In this document: piece by piece, positions 19,901-46,301 of the stretch
Layout of the letters: each line of letters opens with the position of its first letter
Position numbering within the stretch: position 1 is the stretch's first letter
Virus record (IMG/VR): IMGVR_UViG_3300007960_007614
Location: 1-46,301 of that record
Length of the DNA stretch: 46,301 nt
Source: a virus
Direction: 5' to 3' (one strand)
Translations under genes and position numbers: made by a program
The notes under the pieces: generated by a model
What the model was told of the DNA's origin: nothing
Seen by the model: only the letters and a program-made list of their open reading frames with translations
Databases searched by the model: none

Positions 19901-22900
19901 ACAGGTGTTCCGCTATTGTTTGTTCCATCATTTGGTGTAACCTGAATGGATATTTGAGTTCGTGGCGTACCAATTGACACAAAAGAAACCAAGATTGTAT
20001 CTGTTGGGTTAGCTGCTGCTGCCAAAACATCAAACTGTATGTGCTCACCATTTCTAGACGCAGCACTATTGATATCGGTAGTGCTTGTAAAGATGATCGG
20101 AGTTGTTACTGCACAAGGGAAAATTGGAAGACACTCTTGTGTTCCAGTGGCATGGCGACCAACAGTTTCAGGGTATGGTGCATGTCCAAATTCCCAGTCA
20201 TACATCAACTCATTGATACCCCTAATAGTTCCCTCTGGAATATCTGACTTGAACTCCATTGTTGGAAAGCGATGTTGATATTTATTACGCTCTAAAACAT
20301 GGCTCTCAACAACATTTTCAATGTCTTTGAAGCCAGAGGACATTGGCACAACAGAATGAATCATTTCAGATATTGCACCATCGAGCCACTTATAGTATTC
20401 CAAATACTTGTCTAAATCTGGAGTGTTTGAGATTTTTTCATAAAACAGATTTCTAACTTTTTCTAAAGCTTTGTACTTATCTCTATATTTATTGACCCCT
20501 CGTCCAACAAGTGTCTCTAAGGCACTAGCATCAACACAAGCTGCCATAAAATTAAGCATTTCTTCAGAAATAACTTCATACATACTCTTCTCAACTGACA
20601 TTGAGAACTTAACCGGCTTGGTTCTTTGAGTGAACATTTCATCGTCTCTCTGAAGAACCTTGATTGTGTCAGATATATCAAGATTGTCTGGAACTTGCTG
20701 TTTATAGGCAAACAAAAAGTCTTTTGTCACACAGCTTGTATCACCAGATACAAACCCTATACCACGACCCGTGTGCTGTTTTTCTAATAAGGCAGATAAA
20801 TCAGTTCCAAACCTGCCATCACTAGTTCCATAACTCAAGTCTCCGACTTCAAAATCACCATTTGAATCTGAGCCTGTTAAAGTGCTAAACTCCCAGTTCA
20901 ATGCTAATGTTTCCATCTTTGGAACATTTACATCAAAATCTTGAAATAAGAATGCATTTTCATTTGGATTAAACACACCGTAGTTAGATGCATCTATAGC
21001 ATGAGCAATAATCTCATCAGTCTCCAGTGGAACTGCCCAATATCTACATGAAGATACTTTAATGTTTGTGGTTTGCAAGGCGGATCCAGTAAAGTTTTCT
21101 CTATGAGCACCAAAATACATTCTCTTCTTTCTAGAGAGCATTTTTGCTCCATCCGCTTCAGAAATATCAGAGGAAAGCACAAAAGAGTTTACAATCTCGT
21201 CTCCAATGGTGTTATATCCATGGAATTCGATCTTGTAACCTGTTGTCCCAGAAACAAAACCAAGATTCGGATAAGTTTCTGGCAATACCTTTACTGCAAA
21301 GTTCCACTTCTGTCCTTCGTATACATCTCTAAACTTTTGTGAGATAAGAGTAGTGAAGATTCCATCGTCTGCTGATGTGACACCGGATGATGTGAGCATG
21401 AAATACACTTCGTCGTCGGTAATATTGTCATTCCCATTTCTATTAAATCTATCTTTAACAGCGAAGACTTGGAAGTTTGCATAATCTTCTTCAGCCCAAG
21501 TCATGTCTCCTTCGTCTGTCTGATCTATTGGCACTGTGTGCATACCAAAAATAGATGCAGTTAAAGGAGTATATTCTCTTTGTGCATAAGCTGGATTTTC
21601 ATATCCCAATTGTGGAGGAAATACGGTCTCTATTTCTGCCGTAAATCCCATTTCTTTGTCGAATCCACCGCTTTCATTGCTGCTACCGGTCAAATATGCA
21701 ACACTATTTGTATTAGCAGATGAAGTGCTTTGATATACAGAGGCACCAAAGCTTCCGGTATGAGAGAAATCAATAAAGTTTTTCTCAACTGTTGCTGGTA
21801 ATATTGATTGATTGAGGGTTATTTCAGCATTATTTGCATAGAAGTTGATCGAATATAACTCTGTATCCACACCCAAACTTCTGAGAAGATTTCTGATTGA
21901 TTTTTCTGTTCCCTTTGATTTGTTAATCGCTGTTAAGTTGTTATAAACATTAGTATATAACTGATTTTTAACATCAAAAAGGGTCTTTTCGTATTCTCTC
22001 TCTTCGTCTCTATTAGCCAAAGTAGCCAACACATCGGCATCCGCAAACAGTTCAGGAGCAGCGAAACCGTGACTAGTCAACAACCTGTTGGCAAATGGAA
22101 GAGGTTTGTAAGCACTTCCTGTCAAGCTTCCGCTGACATATACAATATCTTGAAGTTTTGACACTTCTTTTGTTTGTATGTATAACTCATCGAAATAGCT
22201 AGATAAAATCTGTGTCAATTCTCTGAGTTTGAATCCATCTTTACTCGAATCATCATCCAGCATCCACTGGGGCATCATTCGATATATCCCCATGGAGTTT
22301 CGAGTATCATACTCCAAGCCTTTTGAAAGAGCATTGTTGTAATAAGAAACAACGCTTGGGTGATTTTTGTACAAAATGGGATCTTTAAATTCTCTTTCTG
22401 CTGCTGATGCGCTCACCATAGCAGAACCGACAAACCTCATCGCAGGAGAGGAACTGTAGTTTGTGATTGTACCATTAGAAACTCGCCCAGAATAATCTAT
22501 AACATTGCTATCTAAGCCATCTTGTGTTGAGATTCCTTCGTTAAACTTATAATAAACACCCAAATCAACTGGATTTGCAGACCCAGTATACTTCGAACCA
22601 TATGATCCGTAGTCAGAGTTTGTTCCTCCAGCTACTTGCTTGAACCAGTTTAATCCAACTTGTTCAGAGTTTCTTGCGGTTTTCCAAAATCTAAACTCAT
22701 CAATCGATGAGCCAGATAAAGATCCGTGTCCATTGCCAACACCTGCTGTGGTCAAAGCTGTAGTTGGTCCACCCCTATATGCACCAATATTTGCATTCAA
22801 TGGTCCAGTTCCAACAGAAGCAACTTGAGAGCCTGTGTGAACTGTGTCGATGAGATTTCCATTTAAATAAAGCTTCATCAACAAATGGTCAGACCCAGTA

Positions 22901-27665: not shown

Positions 27666-30600
27666 TTAAAATTTTGGACCAGATATCATTTTGTATTTTT
27701 CAGGTCCAGTCATATCATAAATACTATTGAATAATGTTTTTAAAGCATTTTTTGTTCCAGAAAACGCCTCTTTTACATTTGGGTCCGCAGAAACAATGGC
27801 AATATTAAATATTGTAAAAATATCAATCAAATCTTTTGTTGGGAAAGAGTATTGCAACAATGCCCCGTACTCATCAGAGAGAACAATGTTTGTCAAGTTT
27901 TTTGTTAATAAGCTAATTCCATATTCTTCAAACAGTAACTCTCTTATATTTTCTGGTCTTAATGCTACTTCTTGAGTTGGCTCATTGAATATTTCAAAAG
28001 ACATTCCTGTATCATTGTTCATTAAATCTATTTTTGATTCAATGATTGGAAATATGTAAGTTTTAAAAGCATCCAGCTTGTAATCATCTCTTTCGATAAC
28101 AAGTATGCTCTTTGTCAACTCTATGTATTTTTTAAAATCTTCATCAATCAAAAGAGACAGAGACCCTTTTCCAGAGATATCTCCAGTAATCCCAATAAGT
28201 TCATCAACAGATTTTGACAAGCTCTTTAAAGTCTCGCTTTGACCATCTGAATATGGCTTTATTTTTCCATCTTCAATGGTTCCTCCGAACTCTACTGCGT
28301 TTAGCTCTAGTTCAGATGTGGCGAATGCATAGCAGAATCTAGTTCCAAGATTTATAGATTTGAAAAACTTAACAAAAGGTTCATTTTGATTTTGATCTAA
28401 AGTCAAAAGCCCATCTCCGGATCCTTGCAAGTTGCCAAGATTTTGTTGTCCAGACATTAATCTGATTAATTCAAATAGGTTATCTTGACTAAGAACTCCT
28501 TTCAATTTTGCATCTCTATTTACTAAAGATTCGACATAGATACCACCGCCAGCCTGAGCTTCTGCCTCGTCTGCCCATTCTTCTATTTGATAATAAACTT
28601 GATTTACAAACTTTCCATTTTTGAACTCTTCAAATCTAGCATCAGAAAACAAAGAACTTGGATAGTCATACGCATTTGCATCCTGATCATTTGCGGGTGG
28701 TGTATCAACTCCATTGGAGAATGCTGTGTCGTGGACAAACAGAGGGGCATTGTAAGATATTAAATCTAAAGGATTTACTTGAGATATACTCGTAAAACTC
28801 TGTCCAGATCCGCCGAAGGTGCCAAGCTTTGCAAAAATGAAATCAAGAGGATAATCAAGATTTTCTCTAATCAAAAACCTTATGGCATCATTAGAGTTTT
28901 CTATTGCATACTCTTTACCAGTTCTTTTATCCAAGATCATTCCAGCATTTCCAACTTCTGTCTGTTCTGGGTCTGAATAAGTAAAGACACTTCTTCTAGA
29001 AATCATTTCCATGCATGTTTCGTGTAGCTTAGTTTTTTCTCCTTCACCAGATTCGTCAAGCTGTTTATTGAAGCTTTTCAAAATAAGCTCTACTAACATA
29101 TCACCTTCAGTTAATAAAAACTTTGGAAACTTACTTATTGTTGGCAATGCTCTAACTAATATATCTCCTGACACAATCTGGATATAAGCTGATAGAGCCC
29201 CTTCTAGTAAAGCAAAGTGGGACATTCCAAGTTCATTTGAGTTTGGATCATCATAGTTTGAGAAATCGTAATTGTCTTTTACTTTCTTCTCTATGACCTT
29301 CATATCCATAAGACCTTTGAGGTATGTGCCGTCTTTGTCAAAAAACTTTTCTGGCTTTAAACTTAACAAACCAAGCTCTTTCTTGCCTGTTGGAGCAGTT
29401 ATATCTACCCCTGCGGCTTCCCAAAGCCCCTTCAGTACAGACACAAGCCCAGATGCTATTGGGAAGTTTTTGGCTAAATCATCAAACAAATCAACATTAT
29501 AAGACCTCAACAACTCTGAGTTGCCGATCGTCTCCGAAATACCTGATAGGATTGAAGAAAATATACTAGCATACATGTCGTTTACTAATATTGGATACAT
29601 TTCTTGGACGGCTTTGTTGTATTTTTCAGATCCCAAATCCTCCGAGGGCGGTAATGCCTTATCAATGAACAGCCTTGCAAAATATTGCTTTTGAGGAGGT
29701 ATATTGGCATCTTCTAAAGGATATTTTTCCAACTGTTGCAGCATAGAATCTGACACCTTTTTGTTTTCTACTCCCAAATCTTGCAGACTGTATGGTGCTT
29801 CAATGATTTGCGGAGTATCAAAGAATACTTTAAGGTTGTTTGTGTAAACTAAATTGTCTTGCTCATCTACATCTGGATTAGAAAAGAATAAATCTATTTT
29901 TACTTTTTGCCCGTAAAACTCCGGTAGCTGCACATTTAGCGAAACGTTTTGTTCATTTGTGCTTAAGTACGTTGGAGAATTAGTTGCTAGATCTGTCAAT
30001 ATATCATCGACACCAAGCAAATACTTATCATCACCAGTGTTATTTCCGTTAAAGTCTTCTGTATAAGGAGCAGTTCTGTCATTTATTGGGAACCACAAGT
30101 CTTTATACAAAGCATTCTTAGACAGATTTGGTTGCGTAGCTATAGAAGCGAGGAACAAAGGTGTAGATGGATAAAGTGGTGCATAAAACAATGCTCCCAA
30201 TGGATTACCAGTTGTCAATAGTTCTCTGGTTTTGCTAGCTTTAACCAAAACATTTGCATTTGCATTAGTTAACCTTGTGCTTTCTCTAGAAAACTCATCT
30301 TCAACTACCCTGAACATGTTTTTAACAGTTTGTTCAATGGCGTGATCTATTGTTGGGTTAGGCAACCCTGACAAAATACCCTTGTTTCCTTTATCGTCTG
30401 CAAACAAAGAAGGTATCTGTTGAGTTAGATCAGGAACTTTTCTGATCAGATTTGCTAACTTGATGTAGTTATCCAAGTCAACTTCTGTGGCTGCTTTTAC
30501 AAGCTTGTCTTGTTCATCTAAGTCTCCACATTTACTTCTCAGTTGTGCCTTGGCTTGCTCATAAATATTGTCACATATGTCAGGATTTTCGAATGTTTCA

Positions 30601-33600
30601 ATAATGTCATTCTCAATCTTTGCAAGTTTCTCTGGTTGGACCTTGAATCCAACGCATCTGAAGAAGTCTCTCGCTCTTGCAGTATTTGGAAGCTGCGAGG
30701 CTAATGATGGATACTTGTTTATTTTGCCTTGAACAACTTTCGAAAGTCTTATCGACATAGAGCCATCAAGAAGCTCCAAGACTTCTCCAGAACTTAGACT
30801 GCTTGATATGTCTGCCAAAAGAGCTTCAACATCGGCAGCAATTGTTCCTTGCTCGTCCATTATTATACCGCAACTTTCAAAGACAGCCGAGGCAGGTCCT
30901 ATTCCGGGAGTTGCAATGATATTCGAAAGATCTTGCGCTCCATAGTCAACAACCCTCTTGACTCCTTCAGGGCAAGTAATCTCAGGACACTTAAGTAATA
31001 ACTCAAGCAATGTAGCAAAAAGCTCGACCAAAAGTTGTGCCAAGATATATTCAAGCGCCTTTAACAAGGCATCCAAGAAGAAATCTAAAATATTTGTAGT
31101 TGGCAATCTTAAGAAAAAATCAGGGATTTCTAAGCAATACGAACAGATTAAATCCTCTGCATCGAACATTGTTTTCTCATTACTAAATGAGTCTGCAAAG
31201 TCTTGCCCAGAACCAAATGACCCTAAATCATACTCATACTCTTGATCTTTTTGCCACCCTGCTTTAGCTCCTCCAGTTACAGATTGATTTGCTGGCGCAT
31301 TGCTTCCTATAGCAGGAACATAAGACAAGGGCTTGACATTTAAGCCTGCTGATGGTCCTTGGAGGTCTACTTTGAAGTTGGGCACTCCGATCTCGTCAAT
31401 CCCTGCCAAATCCAAGAAACATTTGCAAATCTTGCTGTAAATCGCATCAAGACCCCCAACACGTCGTAGAACATTGCTCCACAGATCATCCAAGTTAACT
31501 ACATTGTCTCCTATCTGCCGCAAACCTTCTGCTGAAGACATGAAGTCCCCGACGTATTCTTTGTAGCCAAGCTGGAGGTCTTTCATTCTTGTTAGCGATT
31601 CAAATGAATCAAAGAACAATCTTTCTGACTCAGTTTCAACTTCTCCTCTAAAAAGAGCGCCACCTTTTCCAGTCGGTGGTTTCGGGCACGGAGGCAGGTA
31701 ATCTGTTAAGCTGAACTGGAAAGATCCCAAGTCAAAACGTGGATCTAACTGTAAAGCATCGTCTAGCTGTCCAGCAATTGGTCCCAACAACTCTTGCCAA
31801 GAAGGCAAAGTGAATCTTGGAGGTTTGCACTTTGAAGAAGGAATATCTGGCAATGTGCTTTCGCTCTTTGGAATAACTGTTGGCTTGGGATCTAGGAACA
31901 TTTCCTTGATTGCCTGCTGCCATTTCAATAAAGGATTTTTTAACTGTCTATGATAAAAGAATATAGACATGGTATTTTTTACATTAAAGGGCTCTTGTTC
32001 TTTGATATATTCAAAGCCTATATTCAAAAGCTTTTCGTTATCCTCTTTTGCACCTTCATTGTAAGAAATAAAAGTTACATTAAACTCTGAGTCAAAACCA
32101 ATGTTGATTAGATTCTGTTCTTCTGACGCTATTAAGTAACCATTAAAACTAACAAGCTTTTTAAACAATACCGGTATTCTGTCTAGTCTTTCTGCTTCAA
32201 GAGCAAAATTAACCCCTTGAACTCTGAAATCAGATTTGATGATGTCGAGATACATCTGATTCAATCCATAGCCAGCCTGAACAAGGTGATTAATGTAATA
32301 TCTTGTATCAAGTGTCAAGATTTTACTCGACTCACCTTTCAACTCTGCAAGAGACTTTTGAATATTTGGGAATGCCTGCAAGTAAATGGCACCGACTTTC
32401 AAAAGAAACTTGACATTCTCTCCCGGTCTAATGTCAATATAATAATCTTCTATTCTACTAGTAAGATATGTTTTTATGAACTTATCTATTTCATCAGAAC
32501 TGATCAGCTTTCCATGGAACGCAAATAACTCTTCGACACCTTTTCGGAGTGCTTGCTCTTTTTTAAGCTCTAAGTCTGCCTTAGTCAACACGCATGTGTC
32601 TTCAAGTTCTACGGCATACCAATATTCTGCATCTTCCGTGTGATAGTATGGGACTTCATTTGTCCACCAAGTCGGTATAACAACTCTCTGACCTTCTGTT
32701 AATTGCTTGACAGCTAGCAAACCATCGAGCTTTGCAGTTTGCAGTTTCTCTGACTCGAATACTTCCGAGAAGAAACCATTGAACTTTTCTATTGTTACAA
32801 TGTCATTTCTTTCAATGTAGCCCTCTACACCATTGGATGGCGAATCTGGATCTACAACTCGAACAAGGTCATACTTGTTTTCTCCATTGACGGATTCTTT
32901 TAAAACCTTTAATACAGTAAAGTTTGTTAGAGGCGCAAGAGAATCTGCTCTTTCTCCCGGTTGAACTTTCAGGATAGATTTTGAAGTTACAGAAACACTT
33001 TCACCTTTATTCACCAAAACATAACTTGTAGCAGCCGATATGTCAACTGTCTCTTCAACAAGGTTATCGTATTTTTGATTAATGATTGGCAGATTTTCAT
33101 CTAAAGCCAGAAGCATGTCTTGAGATACGTCTGGTCCTTTGAGAAAAGAAGGTATTTGAGAAAAATCTACTGACTCTAAAGTTCCTGCTATTGATTTTTT
33201 GTATTGCTCATAATCTTGCTTTAGAGACTCGGAATACAAAGCGGCATCGCCAGAACCTTTAAAGATATCATCCAAGTCTAAGCCAGCGGCTCTATACTCA
33301 TCTGATTCTCCCGCCAAAGCAAACACTCCGTGGCGAACCATGTCAGCTACGAGTTTTACTTCATCGATATCTAGATCAACAGCGTATGTTAAAGATGCAT
33401 TCGCTAACAGTAACTGTCGGTAGTATTCACTAGATCCCTCTCCTTGTCTGTAATCTTTTTCTAAAGCACTTGGAAAATCTTCAGATGGATGTTTTTCATA
33501 AAGTTCTCCAACAGCGATGTTGGTGTCATACTCATAATCTATAACAACATAGGGCTTTGCTTTTTCGTATAAAGACAAGTTTTCATCTTTATAGTTTTTC

Positions 33601-36392
33601 ACAAAAGGACTAGAAGAGTCGATTACTGTAGCAAACGAAGTTTCTGCTTCATTTAAATATGTGTTGGATAAAACTTTGTTTTCTCCATAATATATATTAG
33701 CTGTCGACAAACCAAAGTCTGGGCTGATTAAACCGTAACTTACCGGCTCTTTCTCTACTGTTGGATAAATGACTAACTTGTTACACCAATCAGGAACACA
33801 TTTTCTTTCCTTATTAATGAGTGATGGATTTTGTTCTAGATATGGAGTCCACGGGCTATCTTCTTTTGTATAATCTAACCCCTTAGATATATTATTATTA
33901 ATGATCTTTGGCCACACAATAGAATTGAGACTTTGAGCTTGCCCTGTGTTTTCTCTGCTGTAGTTCCAAACTGGGAACTTCATTGGAGACTTGTGGCTCA
34001 CTCCATAAGGAACATTGTTTTTAGCTGCGAAAAAAGCACTTCCCTGTTGGTTAAGAATGTTTTGCAAACTAAAAAGAGTTCCTGTTGCATCATCTCCAAC
34101 ATCACTAAAGTTTCCAAAAAAGCTTTTGAACTTGTTGAGAAAATGATTTTCTCCTGAAGTTCCCAGCAGTGCAGAAGTATTACTTAATGCACTAATATTT
34201 ATGTTACTTCCAGCAGGCAAGTAAGACAGCAAACTAGGATCTTTTGTTATGTGTTGAAAGATTAGTGGTACCATATCGGCATAAATGCCGTAACCACCCT
34301 GACCACCATTAGCATGCAAATCAACATCATAAAAAAGAAAAGAACTCAAAGGGTCTTCTAAAAGCCCTTTTGTTCCATAGAGATATGGAGGAATAGACCC
34401 AAAATGATACATCAGCCACAATGAGGTAATAAACCTTGTTACATCCATTTCACTTTTTGAATCTGTAGATTCAGGGTTGTTGAAAAAGTGTCCATAATAT
34501 GGTATCACTGCGGAGTTAACAGTCTGAGGCTTAAAAGCCAATCTTGTGCTATCTGGCAATGAATCAAACATAGACTTGATTGTTTGTCTATTTCTAGGGA
34601 TAGCTGTGAACTTTCTAGCTTCTATTGATCCGGGAATTGAATCAGCATCTGCTCCCGACAATCCCAATGGCTGACCGATACCAATAAAGTTTGTTGGTGG
34701 CAGACCAAATTTGTAAGAATATTCTTTTTGGGCTGCGTCCATTTTTGTGGAAGATTTGTTATATAAATATCTTGCTGGGTCTTCTTCGTACAGATCTGGT
34801 CTGTTGTACTTAAATAATGAAGTGGATCCCTTGCCCCAAAGAACATTACTGATTACATCGCTAAGTGCATCTCCAGAATAGTTACCCTGCTGATCTGGAT
34901 CTGATGCTCCAAGATAGTTTTCTTTTCCCTGCTTTGAGTATCCAACGAGTGGAGGCAAAGAGTTCAACTCAAAAAAGCTACCACTTATGATTCTGTTCAC
35001 TTGCTGCTGATTTGCAGACAACAAATCTTCACAAGCTTCTGGTTTGTTTTCTCCAGTTATGCTGTCTGTTCCCGGTTCTTTAATGGTTGGCTTTGGACCA
35101 GCATATCTAACGTTCTGTGGCACAACATGCATCACATATTCAAAAACATTTTTGATAACTTCGTTTAATGTCTTCTCTGGATTATCCAAATATTCTTGCA
35201 CTTGACTAGGGTCGATACCGGGGGGAACCAGCTTCAAGGATGACACCAAGTTTGAATACTTAAAATATTTAGCTGGTGATTCTGCCTGCTCGCTGTTTCC
35301 GTGATACCATTTGGTTGTGAAAGCCCCCTGCTCTCCACCCATTAATCCTGCCAAAGAAGGGTAAACTGCGCTGTTTAGTCCCGGCATAAACATTTTTGCA
35401 TGTGTCGGGGTCAGCTTTTGATCGATTGCATCAAAGTTTGTATTTTGCCTTCCGCTTTCAAACTTTGGAGATAGTGTAGAAAGTGGTTCGAGATAGTCCC
35501 ACGGATCACTATCAGCCCAAACGTAATCAAAATAGTTTATTCCAAATGTCAGGTTTGTTGGTGCGATTGGGCTAGTTTTTGAATTGGAGTAAACAACAGA
35601 GAAGCTATTACCTGCTGCACTACTTTCTCCAAAAGATCCCGCCAATGTTTGCGTGATTCTTAAGTCTAGATTTACGAGAGTCTCTTGCTCTTCTTCTCCC
35701 AATAAAAAGAAGTTGAAGTTTGAAACTCCAGTCTGTTGGTCAAATCCATCTTGATCGTTCAATAAGTTAGTTGCTGAAGATCCGAAGTTGGATATTTTCC
35801 CCATTTTTTGTAAGTCAGTATAGATTAATGTATTGCTTCCCGGAGGAAATGCTTTTACATATTCTTCTGTCTGTCCGTCTGGACCAAATCCAGATCTTCC
35901 TGCAACCCTACCAATATTTGATACTGGATATCCGAAATAGTTATACAATATTGCTTGAGTCAAAGCTTTTCCAACTAAGTTTTCAAGAATAAAATCTGTA
36001 AACTTAGATGAATCCCAGCTTTTGTACATTGCAAAAAATGACAATGGAGCAACATAGTTATCTTGATATATCTTTTCGGCTGTCAGTTCTCTTCTTAAGA
36101 TCTTGTTTACTTGCTCTTGCTTTGATGAAGATCCACCAGCTATGCTATATACATCCGCACCGAATCCAGCAGATGCCAACAAAGCTTTAGAAACATCGCC
36201 ATCATAGTTTGAAATGTTCTCATCAAAATACCCTTTAGGGCTTGATTGTTGAAATGGTATACCAAAACCATGATTCCAGTCCCCAACTTTCCACTGATCG
36301 ATCAGCGGTATTTTGATTGTAGCAGTAGAAGTTACTTTTACGCTCTTCTTGGGCTCTGTTCCTTTTTTAAAATAAAAATCTTTATTAGACAT
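27666..36392 (-). CDS. Giant baseplate-region structural protein, 2908 aa, function unknown
   Basis: This single frame of 8.7 kb lies between the spike gene and gp25, so it is very probably a tail-tip or baseplate component. I recognise no whole-length family. Visible parts are an SH3-like beta stretch at about 1125-1200 (GESVSVTSKSILKVQPGE... GYIERNDIV), a proline-rich link near 1540-1610 (LPPCPKPPTGKG), and an unusual helical hydrophobic block at about 1757-1802 (FFLDALLKALEYILAQLLVE). The block is flanked by cysteine pairs (CKC, CSYC, CPEITCPEG). The last third is helical and charged. There is no signal peptide and no internal stop. The ribosome site is a weak AAAGAAG. It may replace several smaller T4 baseplate proteins. 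Confidence 0.7.
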   Translation of the reverse strand: MSNKDFYFKKGTEPKKSVKVTSTATIKIPLIDQWKVGDWNHGFGIPFQQSSPKGYFDENISNYDGDVSKALLASAGFGADVYSIAGGSSSKQEQVNKILRRELTAEKIYQDNYVAPLSFFAMYKSWDSSKFTDFILENLVGKALTQAILYNYFGYPVSNIGRVAGRSGFGPDGQTEEYVKAFPPGSNTLIYTDLQKMGKISNFGSSATNLLNDQDGFDQQTGVSNFNFFLLGEEEQETLVNLDLRITQTLAGSFGESSAAGNSFSVVYSNSKTSPIAPTNLTFGINYFDYVWADSDPWDYLEPLSTLSPKFESGRQNTNFDAIDQKLTPTHAKMFMPGLNSAVYPSLAGLMGGEQGAFTTKWYHGNSEQAESPAKYFKYSNLVSSLKLVPPGIDPSQVQEYLDNPEKTLNEVIKNVFEYVMHVVPQNVRYAGPKPTIKEPGTDSITGENKPEACEDLLSANQQQVNRIISGSFFELNSLPPLVGYSKQGKENYLGASDPDQQGNYSGDALSDVISNVLWGKGSTSLFKYNRPDLYEEDPARYLYNKSSTKMDAAQKEYSYKFGLPPTNFIGIGQPLGLSGADADSIPGSIEARKFTAIPRNRQTIKSMFDSLPDSTRLAFKPQTVNSAVIPYYGHFFNNPESTDSKSEMDVTRFITSLWLMYHFGSIPPYLYGTKGLLEDPLSSFLFYDVDLHANGGQGGYGIYADMVPLIFQHITKDPSLLSYLPAGSNINISALSNTSALLGTSGENHFLNKFKSFFGNFSDVGDDATGTLFSLQNILNQQGSAFFAAKNNVPYGVSHKSPMKFPVWNYSRENTGQAQSLNSIVWPKIINNNISKGLDYTKEDSPWTPYLEQNPSLINKERKCVPDWCNKLVIYPTVEKEPVSYGLISPDFGLSTANIYYGENKVLSNTYLNEAETSFATVIDSSSPFVKNYKDENLSLYEKAKPYVVIDYEYDTNIAVGELYEKHPSEDFPSALEKDYRQGEGSSEYYRQLLLANASLTYAVDLDIDEVKLVADMVRHGVFALAGESDEYRAAGLDLDDIFKGSGDAALYSESLKQDYEQYKKSIAGTLESVDFSQIPSFLKGPDVSQDMLLALDENLPIINQKYDNLVEETVDISAATSYVLVNKGESVSVTSKSILKVQPGERADSLAPLTNFTVLKVLKESVNGENKYDLVRVVDPDSPSNGVEGYIERNDIVTIEKFNGFFSEVFESEKLQTAKLDGLLAVKQLTEGQRVVIPTWWTNEVPYYHTEDAEYWYAVELEDTCVLTKADLELKKEQALRKGVEELFAFHGKLISSDEIDKFIKTYLTSRIEDYYIDIRPGENVKFLLKVGAIYLQAFPNIQKSLAELKGESSKILTLDTRYYINHLVQAGYGLNQMYLDIIKSDFRVQGVNFALEAERLDRIPVLFKKLVSFNGYLIASEEQNLINIGFDSEFNVTFISYNEGAKEDNEKLLNIGFEYIKEQEPFNVKNTMSIFFYHRQLKNPLLKWQQAIKEMFLDPKPTVIPKSESTLPDIPSSKCKPPRFTLPSWQELLGPIAGQLDDALQLDPRFDLGSFQFSLTDYLPPCPKPPTGKGGALFRGEVETESERLFFDSFESLTRMKDLQLGYKEYVGDFMSSAEGLRQIGDNVVNLDDLWSNVLRRVGGLDAIYSKICKCFLDLAGIDEIGVPNFKVDLQGPSAGLNVKPLSYVPAIGSNAPANQSVTGGAKAGWQKDQEYEYDLGSFGSGQDFADSFSNEKTMFDAEDLICSYCLEIPDFFLRLPTTNILDFFLDALLKALEYILAQLLVELFATLLELLLKCPEITCPEGVKRVVDYGAQDLSNIIATPGIGPASAVFESCGIIMDEQGTIAADVEALLADISSSLSSGEVLELLDGSMSIRLSKVVQGKINKYPSLASQLPNTARARDFFRCVGFKVQPEKLAKIENDIIETFENPDICDNIYEQAKAQLRSKCGDLDEQDKLVKAATEVDLDNYIKLANLIRKVPDLTQQIPSLFADDKGNKGILSGLPNPTIDHAIEQTVKNMFRVVEDEFSRESTRLTNANANVLVKASKTRELLTTGNPLGALFYAPLYPSTPLFLASIATQPNLSKNALYKDLWFPINDRTAPYTEDFNGNNTGDDKYLLGVDDILTDLATNSPTYLSTNEQNVSLNVQLPEFYGQKVKIDLFFSNPDVDEQDNLVYTNNLKVFFDTPQIIEAPYSLQDLGVENKKVSDSMLQQLEKYPLEDANIPPQKQYFARLFIDKALPPSEDLGSEKYNKAVQEMYPILVNDMYASIFSSILSGISETIGNSELLRSYNVDLFDDLAKNFPIASGLVSVLKGLWEAAGVDITAPTGKKELGLLSLKPEKFFDKDGTYLKGLMDMKVIEKKVKDNYDFSNYDDPNSNELGMSHFALLEGALSAYIQIVSGDILVRALPTISKFPKFLLTEGDMLVELILKSFNKQLDESGEGEKTKLHETCMEMISRRSVFTYSDPEQTEVGNAGMILDKRTGKEYAIENSNDAIRFLIRENLDYPLDFIFAKLGTFGGSGQSFTSISQVNPLDLISYNAPLFVHDTAFSNGVDTPPANDQDANAYDYPSSLFSDARFEEFKNGKFVNQVYYQIEEWADEAEAQAGGGIYVESLVNRDAKLKGVLSQDNLFELIRLMSGQQNLGNLQGSGDGLLTLDQNQNEPFVKFFKSINLGTRFCYAFATSELELNAVEFGGTIEDGKIKPYSDGQSETLKSLSKSVDELIGITGDISGKGSLSLLIDEDFKKYIELTKSILVIERDDYKLDAFKTYIFPIIESKIDLMNNDTGMSFEIFNEPTQEVALRPENIRELLFEEYGISLLTKNLTNIVLSDEYGALLQYSFPTKDLIDIFTIFNIAIVSADPNVKEAFSGTKNALKTLFNSIYDMTGPEKYKMISGPKF

Positions 36393-37414: not shown

Positions 37415-39598
37415 TTAACTTCTTCTATCTGTATCTCTTTGTCTTAAGTCTATTTCTCTTATTCTTCTTTGGTTAAAATATTTGATACTAAAGTAGTTTT
37501 TTGTTGGATCAGTAAACTCATCTGATGCTTTTCTTATCTTCTCTAGCAACTCTTGCTTTTTCTCTTGAGAATCTACTTTTATTCCACCTGCTGGAAAGCT
37601 TATTGCAGAATCTGAGTTTTCTAGATATTGTTTTACCACTCCTCGGGCTCCAGAAAAGGATGATATTTCTCTTCTTCCATTTTCATTTTCGGATTCTCTA
37701 ACCCACACACAATATGGAAGAGGCATGTCTAATGGTATATTGTAGTCGAATACAATGTCGAGTTCTTCCTCGTAAAGATTTCTTAAGCTTTCATCTGGAA
37801 CAATGTCTGGATTGTTAATAATGTCTCCCAAAGTTACTGGGGCTAACTGGTTTGTTTGACTTATCCTTTCTTTTTCTACTCTCTCCAAAGTAGCTACTAT
37901 TTCTTCATCTGTATATCTTCCAGAATTAATCAACTGTTGCCCAAGAGCATTACGCTCGTTTTCAGTCAATAGATTTCCTTGATTGCTGGAAACATTTTGA
38001 AATCCATTTCTGTATTTCTTTTTGACTGACACGTTGGAATCGCAAAACTCTTGAGCATGATACCAACTGTTTCTGGGCACTTTTATTTCCCAATGCCACG
38101 ATTCAGTTTTATATGCATAGAATCCAAATAACCATCCATATTTAGCCATAAACTTCCAACCAATAGATGCGTATTGTGGAATATGGATGCCTGATTTTTT
38201 TGATTTATCGTAACCAAAAAGAGTAGCTTGAGATGGGTGCATCCCGTTATTTCCAAAGTCAACAGCCAATCCAGTAGAATGATTACTCATTCCGGGATAT
38301 GTTAGCTTGCTAAAGTTTATTGCAGATTTAGATCCGGGTTTTTTTTGAGATATTTGATTTTCTATATATTTTTTTATATTTGAAGGGCTTATTTCAATAA
38401 ACCCTGTTCTCTCTGTCATACCTTGAGAAACAGTAAATCTTTCAGAATATGGCTTAACTGGCGATTGTTTGGTTGCTTCACGGTACTTGAAGTTATCTGC
38501 TGTTACTCCATCAAATTTCCCATCAATAAACGCTCTATAGAAGTGACCCCAAAAGTCATTTAAAGCATTAAGCCTAGTTGCTACAAGCTTGTGAACCCCA
38601 ATGTTATCTCCAGCATAGCTGGTTAACTGATTTCCTGTGGCGAGACCATATCCTAAAAACTTTGGTCTATTTGTTACTAGCTTATTCCTACCACTTCTAA
38701 GAAAACTTTTATAAGACGCTGCTCCGATTTGACTAAAGTTTGTTCCTTCTTTTCCTCCAGAGGTATCCAATTTCATATCTGTAAATTTGACAAAGTTTAA
38801 ATCAAACCCTTGTGGAAGAAAAGGCTTCCCCGGTTGTATGCTGAGGTTTGCATCTTCATAATCCAACGGAGGGAAAAGAACCTCGCAATTGTCTTTCCCA
38901 GATTCAATACAAGCTTGCTTGTTGAACATGCTTTTTATTCCTCCGGGGGTTGTAACTCCAGCACCTGCTACTGGGTTCTGGGCATCTCCTTGGTTGACCG
39001 GTCCTACATATATCCCTCCTTCTAGGGTGTTCTTGTTTTGAAAGTCGACCCAGACTAAATCTCCCGGTGCTGGCGTAAACCCAGACACTTTTGAGTTTTG
39101 TGCAACAAAAACTGGATATTGATTGATTATTCTGTGATCTATGTCATACTCTTCTCCCCTTTGCTGTAAAGTCGGGAGATAACTGGGTATTGGTAATGCT
39201 GCATGTATTTCAGGTATTCTGACTCTCAATTGCAGAAGACCGGGGAGGTTGATTACCTTTTCTTTAGCAATCCCTCCGCCGCTTCCATTGGTGCTTTCCA
39301 AATCAGCATCCTCTCTAATATAATGAGAAAATGGTCCGGAAACCCAACTAGATATATCTGCAATGTTTTTATTTGTTGGTCCCTCGTTTCTCAAAACGAT
39401 TCCAATAAATGGACCGGTGCCAAGGAATGTATTTGCCGAATAAAACGACTTATACATATTTCTTATAAGATCTATACTTGATACATCTGAATGATCAAAG
39501 TTCTTGCCAGTTAACGTGTCTCTGATTGGGTTCAAGACTCCGTAACCAATATTCAATATCTTACTGTAAGAAGTCTTGACATTGGGTTTTTTAGCCAT
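37415..39598 (-). CDS. Baseplate hub/tail lysin: OB-fold domain with M15 (VanY-like) peptidase
   Basis: The 727-aa protein combines a gp5-like N-terminal region (about residues 50-235, a beta-rich OB-fold pattern with PGDLVWVDFQNKN) with a peptidase M15 domain (about 300-505). The zinc site is clear: SNHSTGLAVDFG gives His440 and Asp447, and ESWHWE gives Glu499 and His502. M15 enzymes cut D-amino-acid peptide bonds in peptidoglycan stems. In T4 the hub protein gp5 carries a lysozyme instead, so this phage seems to pierce the wall with a peptidase. A C-terminal region of about 220 residues follows, including a basic end (QRRIREIDLRQRDTDRRS). The start overlaps the previous gene and has AAGGA eight bases upstream. 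Confidence 0.85.
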   Translation of the reverse strand: MAKKPNVKTSYSKILNIGYGVLNPIRDTLTGKNFDHSDVSSIDLIRNMYKSFYSANTFLGTGPFIGIVLRNEGPTNKNIADISSWVSGPFSHYIREDADLESTNGSGGGIAKEKVINLPGLLQLRVRIPEIHAALPIPSYLPTLQQRGEEYDIDHRIINQYPVFVAQNSKVSGFTPAPGDLVWVDFQNKNTLEGGIYVGPVNQGDAQNPVAGAGVTTPGGIKSMFNKQACIESGKDNCEVLFPPLDYEDANLSIQPGKPFLPQGFDLNFVKFTDMKLDTSGGKEGTNFSQIGAASYKSFLRSGRNKLVTNRPKFLGYGLATGNQLTSYAGDNIGVHKLVATRLNALNDFWGHFYRAFIDGKFDGVTADNFKYREATKQSPVKPYSERFTVSQGMTERTGFIEISPSNIKKYIENQISQKKPGSKSAINFSKLTYPGMSNHSTGLAVDFGNNGMHPSQATLFGYDKSKKSGIHIPQYASIGWKFMAKYGWLFGFYAYKTESWHWEIKVPRNSWYHAQEFCDSNVSVKKKYRNGFQNVSSNQGNLLTENERNALGQQLINSGRYTDEEIVATLERVEKERISQTNQLAPVTLGDIINNPDIVPDESLRNLYEEELDIVFDYNIPLDMPLPYCVWVRESENENGRREISSFSGARGVVKQYLENSDSAISFPAGGIKVDSQEKKQELLEKIRKASDEFTDPTKNYFSIKYFNQRRIREIDLRQRDTDRRS

Positions 39599-41347: not shown

Positions 41348-41352
41348 CTCCT
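41348..41352 (-). promoter_or_regulatory. Ribosome binding site that fixes the start of the 67-aa gene
   Basis: AGGAG on the minus strand is followed by ATAGT and ATG at 41342. An in-frame ATG at 41357 lies upstream of this site and would overlap the dehydratase stop. The spacing favours 41342. The AGG overlaps the TAG stop of the upstream gene, which couples the sugar operon to the small-gene block. Confidence 0.6.
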
Positions 41353-42307
41353 ACCATTTAAAGTTATTTTTATAGAATTCTACCAGTTTTGGTATCTCTT
41401 CGTTAAATATTTTTTGAGGTTTCCACCCCAAAGATCGCAGTTTATCGTCGTTTAAGGCGTATCTAACGTCTTGACCTTCTCTTTTATAGCCCAAATCGAC
41501 ATGATCAAGCCAATCAACGTCTCCTCCATGAAAAGATTGAATAATCTTTCGTACTGTCTCACGGTTTTCTTGTTCAAAGCCACCTGCAACATTGTAAATC
41601 TCGTTAGTTTTTCCACTATTTATAATAGTTATGACCGCATTTGCAGTGTCTTCAGCATGTAGCCAGTTACGAATCGGCTTTCCTTCGTCGTGAAGTCTAA
41701 TCTTTTTACCTCTCTGTAAAAGTTTTACAGCCAAGGGAATAAGTTTCTCTGGATATTGGTATTGTCCATAATTGTTTGTGGGGCGGAAAATAACATATTC
41801 TACACCATAGGTTCTCGCCCAAGCAGTAATCAGCATATCGGCTGCTGCTTTGGAGGCTGAATAAGGATTGCTTGGGTTTAGGTGATCTGTTTCGTAGTGA
41901 TCACCTGCTACAATGTCTCCATAGACTTCATCTGTACTAAAGTGGAACAAAATCGGTCGGTTATCGACATTATTTGGCTTTGCTTTGATCAAATCAAGGA
42001 GATTTTGAACCCCATTTATGTTTGATTTCAGGAAGTCTTTGCTGTCAATAATGCTGTTTCCAACGTGTGTTTCGGCTGCTGTATTGATTACATAGTCGCA
42101 ATCTGGTAAATATTTTAGGTCTGCGATGTCACTTCTTACAAAGTCAAAGTTTTCTGGATATTTTTCAAAGAAATATCCTACCAAATCTTCATTTGCAGCG
42201 TAAGTGAAGTTATCAATGCCATAAACTTTCCAGCCTAAATCTAAACATTTCTTTGTGACATGTGAGCCAATAAATCCCAAACATCCTGTAATTACAACTA
42301 GTTTCAT
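41351..42307 (-). CDS. dTDP-glucose 4,6-dehydratase-like NAD-dependent sugar dehydratase/epimerase
   Basis: The 318-aa protein has the NAD-binding motif TGCLGFIGSH (glycines 8, 11 and 14) and the dehydratase catalytic run STDEVYG (Thr125, Asp126, Glu127). It also has YSASK with Tyr149 and Lys153, and the nucleotide-sugar segment RPTNNYG. These are the RfbB/RmlB signatures. The usual reaction makes a 4-keto-6-deoxy sugar nucleotide from dTDP-glucose. The protein is shorter than typical RmlB, so a related substrate is possible. It ends in TTTAAATGGTAG, and the stop overlaps the ribosome site of the next gene. No dTDP-glucose pyrophosphorylase is seen here, so the host or another part of the phage must supply the substrate. 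Confidence 0.85.
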   Translation of the reverse strand: MKLVVITGCLGFIGSHVTKKCLDLGWKVYGIDNFTYAANEDLVGYFFEKYPENFDFVRSDIADLKYLPDCDYVINTAAETHVGNSIIDSKDFLKSNINGVQNLLDLIKAKPNNVDNRPILFHFSTDEVYGDIVAGDHYETDHLNPSNPYSASKAAADMLITAWARTYGVEYVIFRPTNNYGQYQYPEKLIPLAVKLLQRGKKIRLHDEGKPIRNWLHAEDTANAVITIINSGKTNEIYNVAGGFEQENRETVRKIIQSFHGGDVDWLDHVDLGYKREGQDVRYALNDDKLRSLGWKPQKIFNEEIPKLVEFYKNNFKW

Positions 42308-43320
42308 TGTTTGCTTTCACCTGTATCTATCTGTCGCTTAATCCAAGCATAGGTTGTTTTCATGCCTTCTAACAAAGGTTGAGAAGGTTCCCATTCCATC
42401 TTTTCCCTATACAATGCATTGTCGCTGTTTCTTCCTTTAACCCCAATAGGACAAGGAAATCCATATTTGTCTTGAAACTCTTGTCCTTGGATGTTGTTTA
42501 TTGTAACATCTTTTTCAGAAATTGCAATAGCCATTTTAGCAAAATCGTTAATAGCAATCATTTCTTCAGATCCAATATTTACCGGACCTTGGAAATCTTC
42601 GTTGTCCATGAATCTTCTTGTTGCCTCAATACACTCATCAATAAACAAAAAAGATCTAGTTTGTTTTCCATCACCCCAAACCTCAATCGTTTCTCCCTCG
42701 GGGCATCGTGCTACTTTGCGACAGAATGCTGCTGGAGCTTTTTCTCTTCCTCCGTCCCAAGTTCCTTCTGGACCAAAAATGTTGTGATATCGTGCTACCC
42801 TAACAGTTAATCCGTGGTTTCTAGCAAACGCAAACCACAATCTTTCACTAAAGAGTTTTTCCCATCCGTATTCGCTGTCGGGCGCTGCTGGATATGCAGA
42901 ATCCTCGGAACACTTTGGATTGTCTGGATCCATTTGGTTGTGCTCTGGATACATGCAGGCAGATGAAGAATAAAAGATTCTTTTAACTCCTTTTTTAACA
43001 CATTGATCTGCGATATTAAGATTAATCATAGCAGAATTGTGCATAATATCTGCGTCGTTTTCTCCAGTGAAAACAAAGCCTGCACCGCCCATATCCGCAG
43101 CAAACTGGTATATTTCGTCGATATCTTCGGTTACAACTTGTTCACAAACTTGTGGGTCTCTCAAATCTCCAAGAACAAAATGGTCTGCCACTTCATGGCA
43201 ATCAAAATACTCATGTTCTTTGATATCCACTCCTCGAACCCAGTGTCCTTCCGCCTTGAGGCGCTTCATCATGGCTCCGCCAATAAATCCACCTGCTCCA
43301 CAAACTAAAATCTTTTTCAT
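42304..43320 (-). CDS. NAD-dependent epimerase, GDP-mannose 3,5-epimerase-like
   Basis: This 338-aa extended short-chain dehydrogenase has the motif GAGGFIGG at residues 8-15. Its central and C-terminal parts closely follow plant GDP-mannose 3,5-epimerase: AADMGGAGF, SSSACMYPE with cysteine 122, YGWEK with tyrosine 151 and lysine 155, GTWDGGREKAPAAFCRK with lysine 194, then TRSFLFIDEC, VNIGSEEM and GRNSDN. These include the acid/base cysteine and lysine of the known enzyme. That enzyme turns GDP-D-mannose into GDP-L-galactose and GDP-L-gulose. I judge the resemblance strong by eye but have not aligned it. The start follows directly after the previous TAA and has GAGGAAAG upstream. The stop overlaps the next start as ATGA. 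Confidence 0.85.
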   Translation of the reverse strand: MKKILVCGAGGFIGGAMMKRLKAEGHWVRGVDIKEHEYFDCHEVADHFVLGDLRDPQVCEQVVTEDIDEIYQFAADMGGAGFVFTGENDADIMHNSAMINLNIADQCVKKGVKRIFYSSSACMYPEHNQMDPDNPKCSEDSAYPAAPDSEYGWEKLFSERLWFAFARNHGLTVRVARYHNIFGPEGTWDGGREKAPAAFCRKVARCPEGETIEVWGDGKQTRSFLFIDECIEATRRFMDNEDFQGPVNIGSEEMIAINDFAKMAIAISEKDVTINNIQGQEFQDKYGFPCPIGVKGRNSDNALYREKMEWEPSQPLLEGMKTTYAWIKRQIDTGESKQ

Positions 43321-44421
43321 TTATCTTTCCTCGTATTCAAACAAGTTTCCATACTTTTGTTTGAGTTGATCAACAACTTCTTTTCTTTCTCTAACTTTTA
43401 CTTTAAAGCCTTCATTAGCAATACCAACAGCGAATGCAAGTTGTTGTGATTCAACCAACAAAGTAGATTCTGGCTTGTATGTGACATAATCAAAAACAAC
43501 CTCTGTGCTTTTATCATTGTTCTCTACATACTCTTTTATTTGATAATCTAAATGCTTACTATTGCTATCGTCAGAAGCGAGACTGATTAATGCTTCAATA
43601 CCAATGTCTTTTGCGTATATTGCTAAAGCTCTGTTGTCTCTTGGAAAGCAAGGACCCCCATATCCATAACCGTAGCCAAGGTATTTGTTTCCAATTCTTG
43701 TGTCTTGCCCAACAGCATTAAGGACTACATTTGGATCTCCGCCTGAAGATTTTACAATGTCTCCGACCATATTTGCGTATGCGATCTTTGTAGTCAAAAA
43801 ACAGTTCAAAGCAATCTTGGTTATTTCTGCTTCTGTCGGAGTCATTCTACAAATGCGTGGCTCGTTTGTTGTATGTTTTACATAGATTTCTTCCAGAATA
43901 TCTCCAGCTTCTACACTAGATTCTCCAATCAAAACCATGTCTGGCTGTGCTTGGTTTTTAATAATAGTCCCTTGAGCAATGAACTCTGGGTTGTAGCTGA
44001 CCTCATAGTTTAAAGCCAGCATTCTTTCTTTGATTGAGTCGCAATATCCGGGCATTGTCGTACAACACACCACAAAATGTTTTCTAGCATTAGAAACCCC
44101 AAGCATCTCAATAGAATTAATAAGATTATCAACTTGCCTATGATCATATCTGCCATTTTCTAATGATGGAGTTGCAACAACAACAAATAGCATGTCTGAA
44201 TGATTGACTGCTTCGCTTAGGGAAGTCGTGGCTGTAAAGTTACTTGAACCTTGGAGATACTCGTCGACACTTGGTTCAGAGCTACTAAATGTTTTATTGT
44301 TTAAAGATTCTACATAATCTTTATTTACATCTACTCCAACAACATTGTATCCAGCTTTTTCCAAAGTCAAAGAAAAACAAAGACCTAGCTTTCCTATTCC
44401 AATAACAGAAACGTTTTTCAT
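43321..44421 (-). CDS. UDP-glucose/GDP-mannose 6-dehydrogenase family protein
   Basis: The 366-aa protein begins with a Rossmann NAD-binding motif (GIGKLG, residues 8-13). It carries the family's catalytic segment GYGGPCFPRDN with the nucleophilic cysteine at about residue 258, plus the conserved lysine and asparagine near residues 202 and 206 (EITKIALNCF). The family oxidises the C6 hydroxyl of a nucleotide sugar twice to a uronic acid using two NAD+. The C-terminal domain is present but short (YKPE...LLVES), so the protein is at the compact end of the family. UDP-glucose, UDP-HexNAc or GDP-mannose are all possible substrates, and the sequence does not decide between them. An AGGAG site precedes the ATG. 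Confidence 0.88.
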   Translation of the reverse strand: MKNVSVIGIGKLGLCFSLTLEKAGYNVVGVDVNKDYVESLNNKTFSSSEPSVDEYLQGSSNFTATTSLSEAVNHSDMLFVVVATPSLENGRYDHRQVDNLINSIEMLGVSNARKHFVVCCTTMPGYCDSIKERMLALNYEVSYNPEFIAQGTIIKNQAQPDMVLIGESSVEAGDILEEIYVKHTTNEPRICRMTPTEAEITKIALNCFLTTKIAYANMVGDIVKSSGGDPNVVLNAVGQDTRIGNKYLGYGYGYGGPCFPRDNRALAIYAKDIGIEALISLASDDSNSKHLDYQIKEYVENNDKSTEVVFDYVTYKPESTLLVESQQLAFAVGIANEGFKVKVRERKEVVDQLKQKYGNLFEYEER

Positions 44422-44425
44422 TATA

Positions 44426-45175
44426 CTATTCTCCTAACTTATAGACAGGTATTGGCTCCATTTTGTGCTTATTTTTTGTATTAAAACTATTATAAATTCC
44501 AAGCACTTCTCTTTGCCTCTGCGTGAGACTGCCAACATGAGCCATAGCCCATTCAAGTTCTTCATATGATGCGCCGATTTGACTCTCATCTGTTCTAGAA
44601 TCTTCCCACAATCCATCAGTGGGAGGGGCATTTAAGATTTCTTGACTAATCTCTAGAGAAGCAGCCATTTGCCTAACTTGCGTTTTTGTGAGGTCCGCTA
44701 TTGGGCTAATGTCAACTCCTCCATCACCATATTTTGTATAGAAGCCAACTCCAAAATCTTCAACTTTATTTCCTGTTCCAACAACAAGACCGCTTTTTGC
44801 AGTAGCCAAATAGTACAACACCATCATTCTCATTCTAGATTTTGAGTTAGCATTTGCCAGAAGATTAAAATTAGATGATTCCTTAAACATTCCCTCAAAT
44901 GATTCATATGCAGAAGTGGCATCTATGTGAAGTTGCTCGACATTCATATATCGTTTACAGAGCCAGTCGCAATGAAGTTGTGATAAATCTGTATTTTTTT
45001 GTTTTGACTTAATAGGGATGTTAATAACATAAGTTTTTGCACCAGTTTCTGCACACAATGTTGAAGCTAATGCCGAATCAACTCCGCCCGAAACTCCAAT
45101 TACAAAACATTTTGTTCCACTAGTGGTCATGTAATCTTTTAACCACTGAGATATTTTTGTGGCTGTATCTCTCAT
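44426..45175 (-). CDS. nadE: NAD+ synthase, ammonia-dependent type
   Basis: The protein (249 aa from the preferred start) has the ATP pyrophosphatase P-loop SGGVDS at residues 29-34. It also has the NAD+ synthase blocks GTGNKVEDFGVGFYTKYGDGG and PPTDGLW...RTDESQIG, which bind nicotinate adenine dinucleotide and Mg-ATP. The enzyme amidates that dinucleotide to NAD+ in the cytosol. No glutaminase domain is present, so ammonia is the likely nitrogen donor. An ATG at 45187 would add four residues, but it has no ribosome site. The ATG at 45175 has GGAGA five bases upstream and an ATGA overlap with the previous stop, so I prefer it. The gene is unusual inside a sugar operon. A role in NAD+ supply or in countering NAD-depleting defence is inference. 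Confidence 0.9.
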   Translation of the reverse strand: MRDTATKISQWLKDYMTTSGTKCFVIGVSGGVDSALASTLCAETGAKTYVINIPIKSKQKNTDLSQLHCDWLCKRYMNVEQLHIDATSAYESFEGMFKESSNFNLLANANSKSRMRMMVLYYLATAKSGLVVGTGNKVEDFGVGFYTKYGDGGVDISPIADLTKTQVRQMAASLEISQEILNAPPTDGLWEDSRTDESQIGASYEELEWAMAHVGSLTQRQREVLGIYNSFNTKNKHKMEPIPVYKLGE

Positions 45176-46047
45176 ATAACTCTCCATTTATCTGGGTAAA
45201 ACCCTTTTGATACTCTCCCGTCATCTGGGATTGTATAATGCGATGGCGCAATAACAGTCTTGTTTGGCTTGTCATTTAAAAACGCAGCCCAATATCCGAA
45301 AGAAGTCATATGACTAGCAATATGATGGTCACAGTTTTTCATGACAGAAAAATCTTGAATGTCTGTATTGCCTTCACAAAACACAAACTTATCTCCTTTA
45401 AGATTGCTTTTGCACCATTCGATATCTGTTTGGTTATGACTCATTCCCTTTCTGCTTCCTCCAGAAAAAACAAGAAACTTTACATTTTCTCCTTCGAAGG
45501 TATCCAAAGCAGGGTAGAAGTATTTTCCAAAACTACTATCCGGAGTTAGTATATCATTTTCTCCATAATAATTTAAGTATTCTGGATTAGTTCCGTCACT
45601 ATTGTCCCCTCTCCTAATGTGGACACTGACTATTTTTTCATTATTTGTTTTCAAGGAGTTGACATAATCATAGCCAAAACTTTCTAGATCTTTATTTAAT
45701 CTAAACTCTTTTCTAATTTCTTTTTCATACTTTTTAAAGTATTGATATGATTGAAAAAATCCGTGAAAGTTAACAAAATCTGGAACTTGAAACACTTGTG
45801 GATAAAATGCTGAATGGTCTCTCTCTAAAAATGTCGCATTGAGTTCCTGATAATCTGATTCTTGCAAGTAATCACATGAGATACTAAAAAGATTCAACAA
45901 ACACTTTTGATTTTCAAACTCAATATTCTCTGGGTCTGGTATTTTTATTTCGTACCCTGTTTCTAAAGATACAGACTTTAACATTGCATATTGAAAAAGC
46001 TGATTTCCTAATCTTCCTAGCTTTCCAAGATCTAAAAAAGTAATCAT
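45172..46047 (-). CDS. GT11 family glycosyltransferase, alpha-1,2-fucosyltransferase-like
   Basis: The 291-aa protein has the two hallmarks of family GT11. A glycine-rich N-terminal motif GRLGNQLFQYA lies at residues 11-21, and HIRRGD at residues 143-148 is the HxRRxD donor-binding signature. A later segment with KNCDHHIASHMTSFGYW matches the third conserved block. Length is normal for the family. Known GT11 members transfer L-fucose from GDP-fucose onto a galactose. Here no GDP-fucose synthase is seen, but a GDP-mannose 3,5-epimerase-like enzyme lies in the same operon, so L-galactose is a possible donor (inference). The start has a GGAG ribosome site five bases upstream. The 3' end overlaps the next gene. 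Confidence 0.85.
   Translation of the reverse strand: MITFLDLGKLGRLGNQLFQYAMLKSVSLETGYEIKIPDPENIEFENQKCLLNLFSISCDYLQESDYQELNATFLERDHSAFYPQVFQVPDFVNFHGFFQSYQYFKKYEKEIRKEFRLNKDLESFGYDYVNSLKTNNEKIVSVHIRRGDNSDGTNPEYLNYYGENDILTPDSSFGKYFYPALDTFEGENVKFLVFSGGSRKGMSHNQTDIEWCKSNLKGDKFVFCEGNTDIQDFSVMKNCDHHIASHMTSFGYWAAFLNDKPNKTVIAPSHYTIPDDGRVSKGFYPDKWRVI
45181..45185 (-). promoter_or_regulatory. Ribosome binding site that fixes the nadE start
   Basis: On the minus strand GGAGA is followed by GTTAT and then ATG at 45175. This spacing of five bases supports the second ATG as the nadE start. The first ATG at 45187 lacks a purine-rich stretch upstream. The chosen start overlaps the TGA of the upstream glycosyltransferase gene as ATGA, a common coupling arrangement. 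Confidence 0.65.
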
Positions 46048-46301
46048 TATATCTCCAGTGCTTTAATCCATTGTTTTTTCATCTTTTCTTCATCATAAAA
46101 GTCTACAAATGATTTACTAGATTCAATAAACATTGCTTCTTTTTCTTTTCTTGATTTTCTAACATATTCCACAATGTAATCAGCAAAAGCATAAGTGTCG
46201 GCGGTTTTAATATGCTGTCCATTGTTTCCATTTAAAATATCTTTCGCTATACATGCATCAAATGAGACAACCGGAGTTCCTGCATATAGAGATTCCGAAA
46301 C
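46047..46301 (-). CDS. Glycosyltransferase family 4 (group 1), C-terminal part only
   Basis: This is the last 84 codons of a gene that enters from the right edge. The visible protein opens with the pattern SESLYAGTPVVSFD, which matches the donor-binding E-x7-E region in the C-terminal Rossmann domain of GT-B (GT4) glycosyltransferases. A basic, helical tail ending WIKALEI follows. Such enzymes transfer a sugar from a nucleotide donor to a growing glycan in the cytoplasm or at the inner membrane face. The TAA stop shares one base with the ATG of the next gene (TAATG), so the two are translationally coupled. The acceptor and donor cannot be read from this fragment, and the N-terminal domain lies outside the window. 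The family call rests on the motif alone. Confidence 0.75.
   Translation of the reverse strand, partial: VSESLYAGTPVVSFDACIAKDILNGNNGQHIKTADTYAFADYIVEYVRKSRKEKEAMFIESSKSFVDFYDEEKMKKQWIKALEI

Follow-up and report, generated by a model that had tools for sequence, protein, structure and literature searches.

NAD synthetases adenylate deamido-NAD and then let the intermediate react with ammonia, and a NadE relative from F. tularensis is known for an NMN role (PMC3376133). Among viruses, NadE is already annotated in cyanophages and in one pelagiphage. A tblastn search with the NadE described here returned 42 phage records. The annotated phage NadEs (HTVC008M, Sf-FS3, S-SSM7, Bellamy, P-TIM68 and S-SCSM2R) are 45 to 54% identical to it and are all found in sugar operons. 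In each of these phages a UDP-glucose 6-dehydrogenase-like gene (UGD) lies directly downstream of nadE or one gene away; the P-TIM68 UGD is annotated as 'hypothetical protein' in one record, yet it matches UGD. A first-pass annotation of the DNA under study had considered a standalone NadE in a sugar setting to be a new variant. This is not so, since NadE beside UGD is annotated in HTVC008M, S-SSM7, Bellamy and S-SCSM2R. No discussion of the nadE-UGD pairing was found in open-access papers, which is weak evidence of novelty because subscription papers and preprints were mostly outside the scope of the search. The enzyme and its occurrence in phages are known; a systematic NadE-UGD unit appears to be undescribed. 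Phage nadE has so far been taken for an isolated gene of NAD metabolism, and the pairing would make it part of a functional unit.

Two cyanophage proteins of about 145 aa, S-SSM7 YP_004324291 (L084:1978-2415) and P-TIM68 AIR93507 (L086:6617-7051), are also annotated as 'NAD synthetase'. The S-SSM7 protein matches PF19835 (2.3e-56), and the P-TIM68 protein aligns closely with it along its length. By these matches both are GIY-YIG SegE-like endonucleases. Cyanophage auxiliary-gene surveys include 'NAD synthetase' (PMC10452541; PMC7238727), and their counts may include this misnamed SegE-like family.

The nadE gene and its operon

The window, that is, the whole stretch of DNA that was analysed, is a linear virus contig of 46,301 bases. 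Genes for a baseplate wedge, a primase and a late sigma factor on the contig indicate a tailed phage. The tail region contains two giant ORFs, one of 3276 aa (positions 13990-23820) and one of 2908 aa (27666-36392); the latter has no Pfam match at 0.001. In the 727-aa protein encoded at 37415-39598, residues 421-504 resemble VanY (a peptidase) weakly, with a score that just misses the Pfam cut-off; the protein is possibly a virion lysin.

The nadE gene (44426..45175, minus strand) encodes a protein with strong matches to PF02540 (4.8e-50, 170 bits; cut-off 21), TIGR00552 (2.3e-55, 187.5 bits; cut-off 63.65) and phrog_11189 'NAD synthetase' (1.9e-83). Its score is under the tighter PRK13980/PRK00768 equivalog cut-offs. 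The PDB sequence matches are NAD synthetases. Read from the first ATG, the ORF covers 44426-45187 (minus strand, 253 aa); from the ATG at 45175 the product has 249 aa. The latter ATG overlaps the TGA of the upstream glycosyltransferase gene as ATGA and agrees with the start positions of relatives in the alignment, so that 44426-45175 are probably the right coordinates. The 253-aa product consists of one domain and has no nitrilase-type glutaminase domain. By family, it is classified as a complete single-domain ammonia-type NAD synthetase. A separate glutaminase was considered in Sf-FS3, where a 'CN hydrolase' is annotated near nadE; this protein gives no Pfam match.

The genes on the minus strand follow in the direction of transcription as GT group 1, GT11, nadE, UGD, a GDP-mannose-3,5-epimerase-like gene and an RmlB-like gene. 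The GT group 1 glycosyltransferase gene (46047..46301; PF00534 2.6e-5, a little below the curated cut-off) is cut by the contig end, which falls inside the sugar operon, and the upstream part of the operon is missing. The GT11-type (fucosyltransferase-like) glycosyltransferase gene (45172..46047) matches PF01531 (4.2e-20) and phrog_2644 (2.9e-44), and its stop overlaps the nadE start. UGD (43321..44421, 366 aa) starts 4 nt downstream of nadE and matches TIGR03026 (4.5e-68) and the UDP-glucose 6-dehydrogenase structure 3vtf (2.2e-42). Pfam domains PF03721 and PF00984 were found in UGD, and its catalytic Cys (GGPCFPRD) is invariant in aligned set A2. The neighbor of nadE is therefore assigned to the UDP-glucose 6-dehydrogenase family, and its substrate is a prediction. 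Two SDR enzyme genes follow, one GDP-mannose-3,5-epimerase-like (42304..43320; PDB 2c59, 7.3e-92) and one dTDP-glucose 4,6-dehydratase (RmlB)-like (41351..42307; TIGR01181 6.4e-87, below its cut-off; PDB 2hun, 1.6e-64). The first-pass description of a complete nadE with a P-loop, located between a glycosyltransferase and a sugar dehydrogenase, was borne out by these family matches and neighbors.

The P-loop reads G-V-S-G-G-V-D-S (SGGxDS). In 66 UGD-linked NadEs the ATP/Mg residues (S33 G34 G35 D37 S38, T138, E143, K168, T190) and the deamido-NAD residues (N114, R118, Y125, F149, K152, D155, D159, H241, K242) are invariant; one protein that differs at E201 is the sole exception among the site residues checked. 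The same residues are nearly invariant in 80 cellular NadEs. Seven of the deamido-NAD positions align with B. subtilis N133, R137, Y144, F167, K170, D173 and D177, and we take H241 and K242 to be B. subtilis H257 and K258. The contact roles given here to the ATP/Mg and deamido-NAD residues are presumed after the B. subtilis structures. In human NAD synthetase a tyrosine stacks on the nicotinate (PMC6946656), and F149 is equated with this tyrosine. Of 84 positions invariant in cellular NadEs, the UGD-linked members conserve 70 to at least 95%, and 14 are relaxed (e.g., 61, 72 and 116). We looked for a specificity switch common to the UGD-linked NadEs and found none: the 14 relaxed positions differ from lineage to lineage, and no position is altered in every member. 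A conserved site is what an unchanged substrate predicts, short of proof.

An AlphaFold2 model was built from 34 sequences of the window and the contigs (mean pLDDT 84.9, pTM 0.85). Its best fold match is 3fiu, the F. tularensis NMN synthetase (Z 28.8), followed by the NadEs of H. pylori, P. horikoshii and B. subtilis (Z 25-28). VIA-align against B. subtilis 1nsy gave Z 25.4. GMP synthetase and LarE rank lower (Z 15-17). The structure search, which had been proposed as a check against sugar amidotransferases, groups the protein with NAD synthetases.

Distribution of the nadE-UGD pair

The viral NadE set has 91 loci, counting the window and its short duplicate. UGD is found within 1.2 kb of nadE in 67 of them and farther off in 5 more. 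Among 54 non-redundant viral nadE loci, 31 have UGD as the gene immediately downstream of nadE and 9 as the gene immediately upstream. In the reverse test, viral loci were fetched by UGD alone, and nadE was present in 77 of 80, mostly 0-12 nt upstream of UGD; these loci are near relatives in one UGD subfamily and the 77 are not independent cases. Of the three loci counted without nadE, two (L199 and L257) are truncated near the start of their contigs, and in the third, L255, the contig carries nadE at another place. Several other viral UGDs (L176-L184) occur without nadE. In a neutral-anchor test, the GDP-mannose-3,5-epimerase-like or the RmlB-like gene was used to retrieve loci, with a minimum length of 12 kb. 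With the former anchor nadE was present in 16/22 loci with UGD vs 1/42 without (Fisher p 2e-9, relatedness ignored), and with the latter in 4/8 vs 0/58 (p 1e-4, relatedness ignored). It was concluded from these counts that nadE tracks UGD and not sugar epimerases in general.

The pairing also outlives partner swaps, since NadEs that are 75-76% identical adjoin UGDs that are 25-27% identical (L036/L023, L090/L088). Overall, the distances among NadEs correlate with those among UGDs (Spearman 0.43, Mantel p 0.001). Both shared history and repeated re-pairing lie behind the association, and the swaps argue for function. The pair is present in nearly every virus with this UGD subfamily and has been re-formed after partner swaps; this suggests that the two genes work together in phage sugar chemistry, in a partnership not described so far, and speaks against a stray metabolic or defence-escape gene.

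Some viral NadEs of the same family have other neighbors. In seven contigs (L025, L028, L035, L037, L057, L063, L064) nadE lies directly downstream of GroES-/GroEL-like genes (named by eye) and not beside UGD. In six others (L011, L012, L014, L016, L017, L024) it overlaps an upstream GT2 glycosyltransferase gene and a downstream AAA_28-family kinase-like gene, and no UGD was found within the sequence stretch examined around it.

The closest cellular NadEs, 50-57% identical, come from Bacteroidota, marine group II archaea, Desulfobacterales and others. In 17 of the 18 cellular genomes that were sampled, just one strong full-length PF02540 gene is present; the cellular relatives are therefore the NAD synthetases of those cells. 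UGD was found within 8 kb of cellular nadE in 0 of 80 loci, all of them nearest relatives (bacterial pairs elsewhere are possible).

In the NadE tree, a quick tree with many weak nodes, the UGD-linked NadEs are interspersed among cellular housekeeping NadEs. Forcing them into one clade, which would favour a new function, was rejected by the AU test (p-AU 3.2e-5) at a cost of 152 log-likelihood units. The chromosomal NadE of L137 is sister to the NadE of a viral sugar operon (L070) with support 100; its gene adjoins an asparaginyl-tRNA-ligase-like gene and a PolA/DNA polymerase I gene (both named by eye from the protein start).

Possible roles of NadE beside UGD

NadE is likely to have NAD synthetase activity, given its family, fold and conserved site. 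Our main reading, with a probability of about 0.5, is that phages carry a true ammonia-dependent NAD synthetase to go with UGD, and that this enzyme is of the type used for housekeeping in Bacteroidota, marine group II archaea and some Desulfobacterales. Going by family chemistry and the conserved residues, ATP would adenylate the carboxylate of deamido-NAD and ammonia would displace AMP to give NAD+. The extra NAD+ would then support the adjoining UGD at each UDP-sugar oxidation. Each turn of UGD uses up two free NAD+, whereas epimerases and RmlB keep their NAD bound and regenerate it in the same turn; this difference would account for nadE tracking UGD and not the epimerases. The earlier suggestion that NadE feeds both the NAD-dependent dehydrogenase and the epimerases around it is compatible with the data as far as the dehydrogenase is concerned, though by the neutral-anchor counts the link is to the UGD type and not to the epimerases. 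There are points against NAD+ supply. Host respiration regenerates NAD+, and one extra copy of the last-step enzyme would be a weak remedy. A tight pairing with a carboxylate-forming enzyme is equally predicted by amidation of the product. The relaxation of 14 of the 84 cell-invariant positions in the UGD-linked NadEs also speaks against it. In most phages checked, no other NAD-pathway genes were recognised beside nadE. CTP_transf_like matches were considered as NAD-pathway partners and rejected, as by eye those that were read resemble sugar or cytidylyl nucleotidyltransferases, except for one unclassed match in the 642-kb W08.

The main rival of NAD+ supply for UGD is that the NAD synthetase scaffold was recruited to amidate UGD's own product (UDP-GlcA + ATP + NH3 -> UDP-glucuronamide), alone or besides making NAD+. 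This would give a neutral sugar for a phage-directed glycan by a two-gene phage route without AsnB-like enzymes. The chemistry of NadE, carboxylate adenylation and ammonia attack, would simply be applied to another carboxylate, and the specific pairing with a carboxylate-forming enzyme, which persists after UGD is replaced by one only ~25% identical, is explained better by amidation than by NAD+ supply. In bacteria, the AsnB-like WbpS is known to make uronamides that occur in glycans (PMC7468200). No AsnB-like gene is present in the window and one clear one, outside the operon, was found among 16 nadE phages; some operons also contain carbamoyl- and methyltransferases, which stand for other neutral decorations. 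We nevertheless consider this role unlikely. The deamido-NAD contacts do not vary, and this holds for F149, the aromatic on the nicotinate side, and for H241-K242 at the C-terminus. The predicted pocket changes were not seen, with no switch common to all UGD-linked NadEs, and these NadEs are interspersed with the housekeeping type. A search of 17 virus records with UGD (L255 has nadE, the other 16 do not) for an AsnB-like enzyme standing in for NadE gave nothing over the cut-off.

The other explanations keep NadE in NAD metabolism. It is rather improbable that the gene is a general auxiliary metabolic gene that raises the NAD pool and was passively inherited beside UGD with the sugar cassette. 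Other viral NadEs do adjoin GroEL or other non-sugar genes and the distance correlation (Spearman 0.43) is expected of co-inheritance, but UGD types are swapped under closely related NadEs, gene order varies, and nadE still tracks UGD when loci are retrieved through other anchors. Slightly less credible still is an NMN synthetase which, like the Francisella NadE relative, would amidate nicotinate mononucleotide instead of deamido-NAD and still feed NAD+. The best PDB match by sequence and by fold is indeed 3fiu; however, the identity is only ~30%, true NAD synthetases score nearly equal, and the nucleotidyltransferase-family matches that were classified, a part of the total, resemble sugar or cytidylyl types. 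The possibility that NadE rebuilds NAD+ after attack by host NADase defences (Thoeris, DSR2 and similar), as raised in the first-pass annotation, found no support and seems very unlikely. Phage NAD+ reconstitution exists (NARP1; PMC12774641), and a NAMPT-type gene is present in 3 of 16 nadE relatives. However, such NADases leave nicotinamide or ADP-ribose, neither of which NadE can use by itself; NAMPT is absent from the window (a genome fragment) and from 13 of the 16 relatives; PADLOC gave no match; and nadE tracks UGD. Three viral genomes, L022 (G021), L071 (G023) and L089 (W08), contain both NadE and a NAMPT/NAPRTase-family gene and may hold more of the NAD route.

The question is then whether NadE makes NAD+ for the dehydrogenase or amidates its product, and either answer bears on the use that marine phages make of their large sugar operons. 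Amidation, if true, would mean an enzyme class new to glycan chemistry.

Comparison with described systems

The phage protein shares its domain, fold, P-loop and Mg/ATP/deamido-NAD residues with NadE of the TIGR00552/PF02540 family (B. subtilis 1nsy/1ee1, E. coli 1wxi), and all are alike in having no glutaminase domain. It differs from the B. subtilis and E. coli enzymes in being phage-encoded, in its tie to a sugar dehydrogenase gene and in its place on a Bacteroidota/MGII-like branch. Amidotransferases of the WbpS/WbqG type convert a sugar carboxylate to an amide in glycan operons, the reaction that amidation of UGD's product would require of NadE. They are AsnB-like class II amidotransferases, whereas the window gene is a NadE. 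PF00733, the AsnB-like synthetase domain, is absent from the window and the ORF itself matches PF02540, so that membership of the WbpS type is barred, though NadE may carry out the same reaction. NARP1 (Adps + Namat) likewise consists of phage genes that make NAD+, with enzymes and substrates different from those of NadE; no gene for its Namat (NAMPT-like, PF04095) was found in the window, which covers a genome fragment. Close described counterparts are HTVC008M AGE60495, S-SSM7 YP_004324310, Bellamy gp225 and S-SCSM2R XQU50155 (phrog_11189), which have the NadE family and the UGD neighbor in common with the window and belong to different phages.
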